Origin: a virus
Strand: one strand, 5' to 3'
DNA length: 43,822 nucleotides
IMG/VR virus record: IMGVR_UViG_3300009609_000015
Span: 1 to 43,822 of that record
The position numbers and the translations under genes were made by a program. Positions 426 through 43,822 of this stretch are shown in pieces (within the stretch, counting starts at the first letter, position 1; each line of letters begins with the position of its first letter). The notes under the pieces were generated by a model. It was not told the origin of the DNA, did no database searches, and was given only the letters and a program-made list of their open reading frames with translations.

Positions 426-688
426 CCTATCTCTATCCACCCATACCTAGGTATGGCTCGGAGGGCTTTACCCTCTGGAAGGCCCAATTAGCCATGACCC
501 CCAATGATCCCGTTGCCGTGGACATCCTACTTGCCATAGGACGCCGCTTTATCAATAACGATGGCACCCTACACCTTCGAGGAGTGTGCTGGTGCTTTTG
601 GCAACCTGGTCCCGACGGCAAACCTACCCATACTCCACCATGCCTAGCTGCCAAGGCTTACGTTGGGCAGCCTTTCACAATTCCTTGA
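422..688 (+). CDS. Hypothetical early protein, 88 aa
   Basis: I chose the ATG at 422 because it overlaps the upstream stop as ATGA and is preceded by GGGCGAGGA. A longer reading from 272 would overlap the previous gene by half. The protein starts MTYLYPPIPRYGSEGFTLWK. It carries a C-W-C-F-W core and a second Cys late (residues about 60-75), so metal binding is possible but unproven. The stop lies inside the -35 box of the promoter at 685-713, so this gene ends the transcript arriving from the left. Confidence 0.65.
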   Translation: MTYLYPPIPRYGSEGFTLWKAQLAMTPNDPVAVDILLAIGRRFINNDGTLHLRGVCWCFWQPGPDGKPTHTPPCLAAKAYVGQPFTIP

Positions 689-713
689 CATCCCCTTCCC
701 CCAAGCGTATCCT
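685..713 (+). promoter_or_regulatory. Sigma70-type promoter for the small RNA/peptide unit
   Basis: The -35 box TTGACA (685-690) is a perfect consensus. A 17-base spacer leads to TATCCT (708-713). A start near 719-721 is expected. The next elements downstream are the 20-codon ORF at 756, the cloverleaf-like segment at 822-933 and the terminator at 937-970, so this promoter appears to serve a short stand-alone transcript. Confidence 0.65.
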
Positions 714-755
714 TACTGAGCGCCCACCCTTACCCTAACCCCAAAGGAGAGCCCC

Positions 756-818
756 ATGCTCCTCACCATCCTCGCAGGCTTGAGCCTGGTGGATATTTTT
801 TGGTTTCTCTGGCGTTGA
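756..818 (+). CDS. 20-aa hydrophobic peptide
   Basis: The ATG is preceded by an excellent Shine-Dalgarno site, AAAGGAGA (743-750), five bases upstream. The peptide is MLLTILAGLSLVDIFWFLWR: one continuous hydrophobic helix with an acidic residue in the middle and a terminal arginine. Such peptides sit in membranes. Known examples include type I toxins (Ldr, TisB, Fst) and regulatory membrane peptides. It lies between a promoter and a structured RNA, so it may be the coding part of a dual-function RNA. Translation is likely from the site quality; the role is not known. Confidence 0.5.
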   Translation: MLLTILAGLSLVDIFWFLWR

Positions 819-821
819 GCC

Positions 822-933
822 TGGTTCGGCGACGTGGAAGGGACACATGCCCAGACAGTGGGACGAGTCGGTGACGATCTGATGCAACTGACTAAGCCCG
901 GCCAAGAGTAGGTTTCGAGTCCTACGCGAACCA
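822..933 (+). ncRNA. Cloverleaf-like structured RNA with a T-arm-like hairpin
   Basis: A 7-bp closing stem pairs 822-828 with 927-933. Inside it are GTG/CAC (834-836 with 844-846), CCC/GGG (850-852 with 860-862), a 6-bp stem (866-871 with 888-893, one G-T pair) and a T-arm-like hairpin GTAGG/CCTAC (908-912 with 921-925) whose loop reads TTTCGAGT. The last matches the TTCRANY T-loop but has eight bases. At 112 bases, with no U33-type anticodon loop and a weak D-arm, it is not an ordinary tRNA. A promoter (685-713) lies upstream and a terminator (937-970) downstream. The pairings are by eye; the RNA is inferred. Confidence 0.45.
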
Positions 934-936
934 CTC

Positions 937-970
937 GGGGAGGAAGGCTAACCACCTTCCTCCCCTTCTT
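937..970 (+). terminator. Intrinsic terminator after the cloverleaf-like RNA
   Basis: GGGGAGGAAGG (937-947) and CCTTCCTCCCC (955-965) form a perfect 11-bp stem around a 7-base loop. TTCTT follows. Its first bases belong to a copy of the dispersed ACTCGGGG motif (933-940). Confidence 0.75.
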
Positions 971-42541: not shown

Positions 42542-42637
42542 ATGCGCTCCCTAATTTACCTCGCGGTCTTCTCCCTAATCCTTTTCGGTTGCTACCTCGC
42601 CGGCCGCATGGTAGCCTTGACCATGACTGGATACTAA
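42542..42637 (+). CDS. Single-span membrane microprotein, 31 aa
   Basis: The product, beginning MRSLIYLAVFSLILFGCYLA, has one hydrophobic helix with a Cys at residue 17 in an LFGC context, a weak match to a lipobox. The start is two bases after the previous stop, and the next gene begins three bases after its stop. It could be an anchored peptide or a small lipoprotein. Confidence 0.5.
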   Translation: MRSLIYLAVFSLILFGCYLAGRMVALTMTGY

Positions 42638-42640
42638 ACT

Positions 42641-42923: not shown

Positions 42924-43091
42924 ATGCGTCATTCCCCACTTTGGCTCGCGGCCTTGGCCTTAGCCTTGGTCGCTTGCTCGACCACGCGCTCTAAGCCCCA
43001 AACCTCCCCAGACCTGTTCACCATTGCCGAGGGCGACTCCATTGGCGGTCCACCGCTGATCGACGGCCTACCCGAATGTGAAGCGCGCTAG
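42924..43091 (+). CDS. Small lipoprotein, 55 aa
   Basis: ATG 42924 follows AGAGGAG by six bases; an in-frame ATG at 42903 lacks a site. The product has a full signal peptide with lipobox, MRHSPLWLAALALALVAC, with Cys18 as lipidation site and Ser-Thr following. The mature part is about 38 residues, Pro/Asp-rich, with a second Cys near the end. Phage lipoproteins of this size serve as outer spanins or block superinfection. The early position, far from the lysis genes, favours superinfection exclusion. Confidence 0.7.
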   Translation: MRHSPLWLAALALALVACSTTRSKPQTSPDLFTIAEGDSIGGPPLIDGLPECEAR

Positions 43092-43606: not shown

Positions 43607-43804
43607 ATGCAATTCAAATCCTTAGCGGAAGCGGAAGCCTTTCTAGCCGCTAAGTCCGCCCAATGGCGCTCAGGCTCACCCTGCCCAAAGTGCGGCCGCA
43701 CCCTCTCGCCTTGGCCACTCCGTCGCGGGAAGGAGCCTAGATGCTCCCCCACCGGGTGGGTTAACTGCATAGCTAAATACCCCTTGGAGGAATCCCCCAC
43801 ATGA
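43607..43804 (+). CDS. Small zinc-ribbon protein, 65 aa
   Basis: ATG 43607 lies four bases after the previous stop; a longer frame from 43553 would overlap that gene. The product begins MQFKSLAEAEAFLAAKSAQW. CPKCGRTLSPW, RRGKEPRC and WVNC form a four-Cys zinc site. The end, YPLEESPT, is encoded over the ribosome site of the next gene, and the stop overlaps that gene's ATG. It continues as bases 1-105 of the window. Confidence 0.7.
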   Translation: MQFKSLAEAEAFLAAKSAQWRSGSPCPKCGRTLSPWPLRRGKEPRCSPTGWVNCIAKYPLEESPT

Positions 43805-43822
43805 TCCGCGCCGAACGTGAAA
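43700..43822. repeat. Terminal direct repeat, right copy
   Basis: Identical to 1-123. See the left copy. Confidence 0.9.
43801..43822 (+). CDS. 5' end of the gene at 102 (duplicate of 102-123)
   Basis: The first 22 bases of the 107-residue gene annotated at 102-425. The ATG overlaps the zinc-ribbon stop at 43802-43804. The frame is cut by the window end only. Confidence 0.85.

Follow-up and report, generated by a model that had tools for sequence, protein, structure and literature searches.

The DNA analysed (IMGVR_UViG_3300009609_000015; 43,822 nucleotides, the whole stretch being termed the window) represents a phage genome that is circular and 43,699 bp in size. The last 123 bases (window 43700-43822) are identical to the first (1-123), and since both ends of the window agree the genome is circular or circularly permuted. 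Genes for capsid, portal, terminase and DNA polymerase identify the phage as podovirus-like. A 20-aa open reading frame (ORF) and a tRNA-like RNA lie inside an early operon of very small genes. The features at this locus, window 685-970, are listed in Table 1. Every feature described in the first-pass annotation was recovered at its position; the D-arm-like hairpin, with the loop GAAGGGA that later proved diagnostic, had been missed. The promoter-like sequence overlaps the stop codon of the gene at 422-688. The pair next to the closing stem (P1), 829/926, is a G-G mismatch in the window and is paired in most members of the family described below.

Table 1. Features of the locus at window 685-970.
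Feature	Position	Strand	Remarks
Sigma-70-like promoter, TTGACA (685-690)-N17-TATCCT (708-713)	685..713	+	Putative, not above chance
Shine-Dalgarno site AAAGGAGA	743-750	+	Precedes the 20-codon ORF
20-aa hydrophobic ORF MLLTILAGLSLVDIFWFLWR	756..818	+	Shine-Dalgarno site at 743-750; codon usage
tRNA-like non-coding RNA, 112 nt	822..933	+	Covariation over 10 sequences; held-out covariance model match at exactly these bases
P1 (acceptor-like closing stem, 7 bp), 5' strand	822..828	+	Pairs with 927-933
D-arm-like hairpin, ACGTG (GAAGGGA) CACAT	832..848	+	Stems 832-836/844-848; one C-A mismatch
Variable insert replacing the anticodon arm, 59 nt	849..907	+	Includes a 7-bp hairpin, AGTCGGT/ACTGACT
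T-arm, GTAGG (TTTCGAGT) CCTAC, 8-nt loop	908..925	+	Stems 908-912/921-925
P1, 3' strand	927..933	+	Pairs with 822-828
Intrinsic terminator, 11-bp stem, tail TTCTT	937..970	+	Stem 937-947/955-965; 3 nt past P1

Features of the window were compared with chance expectation. Promoter-like sites numbered 9 in 15 kb against 8.4 expected, and the stricter form TTGACA-N16-18-TAnnnT occurred once against 0.23 per strand; the promoter noted earlier is thus present as letters, but the match is no better than chance. The terminator proposed at the same time fared differently: an 11-bp perfect hairpin with a T-rich tail was found in 0 of 30 shuffles. By folding energy alone the RNA was no more stable than its own shuffles (z = +0.68). 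The combination of a closing stem with a T-arm carrying the T-loop motif occurred once in the window and in 0 of 30 shuffles; it and the terminator were the only features to stand out in single-sequence tests.

Codon usage and the Shine-Dalgarno site of the 20-aa ORF are typical of the genes of this phage, and the peptide has a GRAVY of 1.68. The ORF is probably a real gene for a putative small membrane protein, and more plausibly belongs to a set of several tiny genes for membrane proteins that the early operon contains. Further tiny ORFs resembling membrane proteins and lipoproteins, with similar ribosome-binding sites, were observed in the operon at 42542-42640 and 42924-43091. Extension of the ORF into the RNA by frame-shift or read-through was considered and rejected, the downstream frames scoring near or below the wrong-frame level.

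Several other features of the surrounding DNA were recorded. A second promoter-like sequence, TTGACT-N17-TAACCT, lies at 1044-1072 directly 5' of the gene starting at 1079, its spacer being a GGGACC/GGTCCC hairpin. Imperfect inverted repeats at 2199-2258, one G+A-rich and the other C+T-rich, adjoin an AT-rich stretch and are a possible origin or control region. The octamer ACTCGGGG occurs at 19 sites over both strands of the window, including 933-940 and 991-998, against 1.87 expected from shuffles and a maximum of 5 in 100 shuffles. This dispersed motif is also enriched in the nearest relatives of the phage (G001-G003), one of which, G001, is additionally rich in AACCCGGGG (13 vs 0.7). These relatives encode tRNA-Trp and tRNA-Pro (in G001 at L051:13390-13466 and L052:1030-1104), the former directly upstream of the terminase gene and the latter after the primase gene. 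Neither tRNA is present in the window phage, and a homologue search did not find the tRNA-like element in the nearest relatives.

Beyond the window, initial homologue searches returned only near-identical copies of the same phage. The search for a family was started from a pattern modelled on the T-arm, unusual for its 8-nt loop; it gave one match, in a metagenomic viral contig (L086). Within the 127 nt around this match GGCGGCGTGGAAGGACACGC is present as well, together with an adjacent closing stem that differs in sequence. The search was extended by distant blastn, first with the contig sequence and later with newly found members and with short composite queries made from their conserved ends. 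The family comprises at least 10 distinct members (at least 11 loci), window 822-933 included. The others are in Caulobacter phage DMCA, a plasmid of Sinorhizobium meliloti LMB1, Pseudanabaena phage Pan3, Komagataeibacter phages phiKX1 and phiKX2 (whose elements are identical), Alcaligenes phage QDWS595, Acidovorax phage AP1, a Roseomonas mucosa plasmid, Iodobacter phage PLPE and contig L086. On the Roseomonas plasmid the element directly follows an endolysin-like gene for a glycosyl hydrolase 108, and the locus looks like a prophage end. Hosts span alphaproteobacteria, betaproteobacteria and one cyanobacterium; the genomes include podovirus-like, Schitoviridae and temperate ones. Each carrier record that was searched whole holds one copy. 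In annotated records the element is intergenic with no annotated feature on top of it. Ten distinct sequences are sufficient for covariation and too few to give the true spread of the family.

Matches from outside this set were inspected. A scan of 201 Chloroflexota genomes gave 4 weak matches and none was accepted, three lacking a T-arm and the fourth being imperfect at 29 bits. E. coli genomes gave no match to one 52-nt consensus query, and the full covariance model found nothing in 318 kb of other viral loci. Blast matches on plasmids of Cupriavidus, Methylorubrum, Streptantibioticus, Novosphingobium, Burkholderia and Paraburkholderia were not members on inspection.

All members, 112-163 nt in length, share an architecture of a closing stem of 5-9 bp or more, a D-arm-like hairpin, a variable insert, and a T-arm joined to the closing stem. 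P1 takes forms such as TGGTTCG(G), TCCTGCGG, GTTGCGG, ATCGGGAG, TGCATCGT and AAGGCGG, with the far side matching in each case; it is not always 7 bp, and in PLPE it is a perfect repeat of about 17 bp. Most members have GCGTG/CACGC as the D-like stem; the Roseomonas member has ATGTG/CACAT and the Alcaligenes phage TCGAT/ATCGA. This stem closes a loop of consensus GAWGGA (GAAGGA or GATGGA; GAAGGGA in the window). The insert, 59-111 nt across the family, occupies the anticodon-arm position of a tRNA. The T-arm has 5 bp, two of them varying, and an 8-nt loop of consensus NNTCRASY (TTTCGAGT, TATCAAGC, TGTCAAGC, AATCAAGC and similar). Window 822-933 shares these features, deviating in its 7-nt D-like loop, one C-A pair and one G-G pair.

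Covariation among homologues, whose absence had been named beforehand as refuting the initial reading, was measured on an alignment of 10 sequences, and this test was passed. Standard pairs filled 97.7% of 176 cells, 14 of the 18 pairs were changed on both sides, covariation was seen in all three helices, and 0 of 500 shuffles reached any of these measures. As the structure had been recognised from the window to begin with, the analysis was run again on the other nine sequences alone, which were 98.8% paired, with 15 of 19 pairs covarying. A held-out model built from the nine other sequences matched the window at exactly 822-933 with 41.7 bits (E 8.4e-7, from a rough, short calibration), which was its only match in 43.8 kb. 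The full model separated the members, at 76-106 bits, from all other sequences, the best of which scored 18.7. By this comparative evidence the fold overwhelmingly exceeds chance. No member core matched Rfam 15 and no corresponding description was found in the literature searched, absence from either being no proof of novelty. Judged by sequence comparison, the RNA at window 822-933 belongs to a family of structured RNAs that is apparently undescribed.

The order of elements is that of a tRNA: acceptor-like stem, D-like hairpin, an insert in place of the anticodon arm, T-arm and acceptor strand. The invariant GA.GGA and TC.A fall at the positions of tRNA D-loop G18 G19 and T-loop 55-56/58, the bases through which the two loops are joined in the elbow. 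In tRNA the elbow serves RNase P, RNase Z, TruB, CCA-adding enzymes and the ribosome as a recognition surface (PMC4810234). The family differs from tRNA in an invariant C at position 8, where tRNA has U, in a T-loop that is one base too long (8 nt), and in a position 54 that is often not U. The window member lacks an anticodon arm and has no encoded 3' CCA directly after P1. ARAGORN and RF00005 were both negative for the window core, and no 5-bp stem with a 7-nt loop and U33 could be read in 829-907; the initial description of the RNA as not a standard tRNA was therefore borne out. In Pan3 a tRNA-like body is nested in the insert (L109:2560-2625), scoring 34.9 bits with RF00005 without an aligned anticodon arm.

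The family was also compared with other RNAs that carry tRNA-like parts. The tRNA-like domain of tmRNA keeps the acceptor stem and T-arm and has other RNA in place of the anticodon arm (PMC3929946), and the family shares this plan. It differs in that it encodes no tag, lacks a 3' CCA, has a D-like stem of paired bases and is 112-163 nt long, and identity with tmRNA was rejected, the Rfam tmRNA models matching none of the member cores. Phage QDWS595 has a separate tmRNA (L112:67-493; tag ANDNVYAAAA by ARAGORN) that matches both the permuted and the betaproteobacterial tmRNA model; odd tRNA-like predictions come after it. YrlA, a bacterial Y RNA, is likewise a non-coding RNA with a tRNA-like module, proposed as a competitor of an anticodon nuclease (PMC7790460). 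Identity with it was rejected: the Ro-binding motif GNCGAAN0-1G is in no member, none of the ten carrier records has a TROVE/Ro60 gene, and there is no Rfam match. GOLLD and ROOL are structured non-coding RNAs, the former phage-associated; unlike the family, they are several hundred nt long and oligomeric.

Terminators lie 3-30 nt past P1 in the window, S. meliloti, Pan3 and phiKX1/2, with a weaker one in DMCA; a simple terminator scanner confirmed that of Pan3 and not that of DMCA. For the L086, QDWS595, Roseomonas and PLPE members the search gave no terminator, and a scan at DMCA, Roseomonas and Pan3 gave no consensus promoter. A gene on the same strand ends 3-107 nt upstream of the element in six members (window, AP1, Roseomonas, Pan3, DMCA and QDWS595). 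This arrangement, and the terminators after several members, would suit the main rival to a trans-acting elbow mimic, namely that the element is an RNase P cut site or 3' shield serving 3'-end processing or stability of the upstream mRNA, the released RNA being functionless. A stack of acceptor stem and T-arm is the minimal shape of an RNase P substrate, and the family has it. The upstream genes are, however, unrelated among members, the upstream neighbour in phiKX1 is a tRNA gene, and a cut site needs less than a conserved D-like hairpin and sequence; we consider this explanation unlikely. The layout in the window, with the gene at 1079-1258 downstream, could also be read as a riboswitch-like regulator in which an aptamer and terminator control the next gene in cis. 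The downstream genes of DMCA and Pan3 are convergent, on the opposite strand, which makes a cis-regulator unlikely, and no consistently co-oriented downstream gene is common to the members examined; regulation in cis is thus largely refuted, with only a slight chance left to it.

A decayed tRNA gene was suggested by the tRNA-Trp of relatives G001-G003, whose acceptor TGGTCCG and T-arm GTAGGTTCAAGTCCTAC are close to window 822-828 and 908-925. The form with the 8-nt loop is kept, with compensatory changes, in ten unrelated genomes, and because decay would not give such conservation an isolated tRNA relic at window 822-933 is refuted and decay itself is very improbable; a remote tRNA ancestry of the whole family is possible. 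Equally improbable is a type I toxin-antitoxin or dual-function RNA, in which the 20-aa peptide would be a toxin regulated by the RNA. The length and hydrophobicity of the peptide do resemble those of short membrane toxins, but the RNA lies downstream, on the same strand rather than antisense, a search over the ORF gave no antisense promoter-like site, and the other members follow quite different genes without this ORF beside them. The first-pass annotation is supported in its discrete, terminator-ended tRNA-like RNA and unsupported in its dual-function and type I toxin readings.

Two further candidates were tried and rejected. For an attP copy of a host tRNA 3' end, the 21-base tRNA-3'-end pattern was found only inside apparent coding matches in two Chloroflexi MAGs. 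Against a mobile element with terminal inverted repeats, P1 differs from member to member with compensatory changes, and each genome has a single copy.

A trans-acting mimic of the tRNA elbow is favoured because of the terminators, the convergent neighbours and the conserved elbow bases, and the window RNA is, with fair probability, a stand-alone mimic of the upper half of tRNA within a new phage-borne RNA family. The acceptor-like stem would be joined to the T-arm and the GG of the D-like hairpin would dock into the T-loop, forming a tRNA elbow in three dimensions, with the free-form insert taking the place of the anticodon arm. The RNA may arise as a short transcript or be released by cleavage from the 3' end of the upstream mRNA; RNase P would be the obvious candidate for the cutting, since it reads stacks of acceptor stem and T-arm. 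It would then act by occupying a host factor that recognises the elbow, candidate partners being RNase P, RNase Z, TruB, the CCA-adding enzyme, the ribosomal L1 stalk or a tRNA-attacking defence protein. The variable insert may be the host- or target-specific part. Recruitment of tRNA-handling enzymes by the RNA, as initially suggested, is plausible. More generally, the RNA probably helps phages to engage the host tRNA-handling machinery, as it recurs, as a single copy each time, in phages that are unrelated and in phage-like regions from several groups of bacteria. We tentatively suggest, at somewhat less than even chance, that such RNAs are widespread undescribed agents of phage counter-defence or takeover, elbow decoys with a swappable insert that would titrate or divert a host factor which binds or attacks tRNA during infection. 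In Pan3 the swappable insert would be the second tRNA-like body.

Small phage RNAs with a fold of their own are rarely recognised. What this family keeps of tRNA is exactly the part on which RNase P, TruB, RNase Z, the CCA enzyme and the ribosome act, and the codon-reading part is dropped. Some of the carriers have hosts in culture (Caulobacter vibrioides CB15, Komagataeibacter xylinus and Alcaligenes faecalis), and the covariance model allows the family to be annotated elsewhere.
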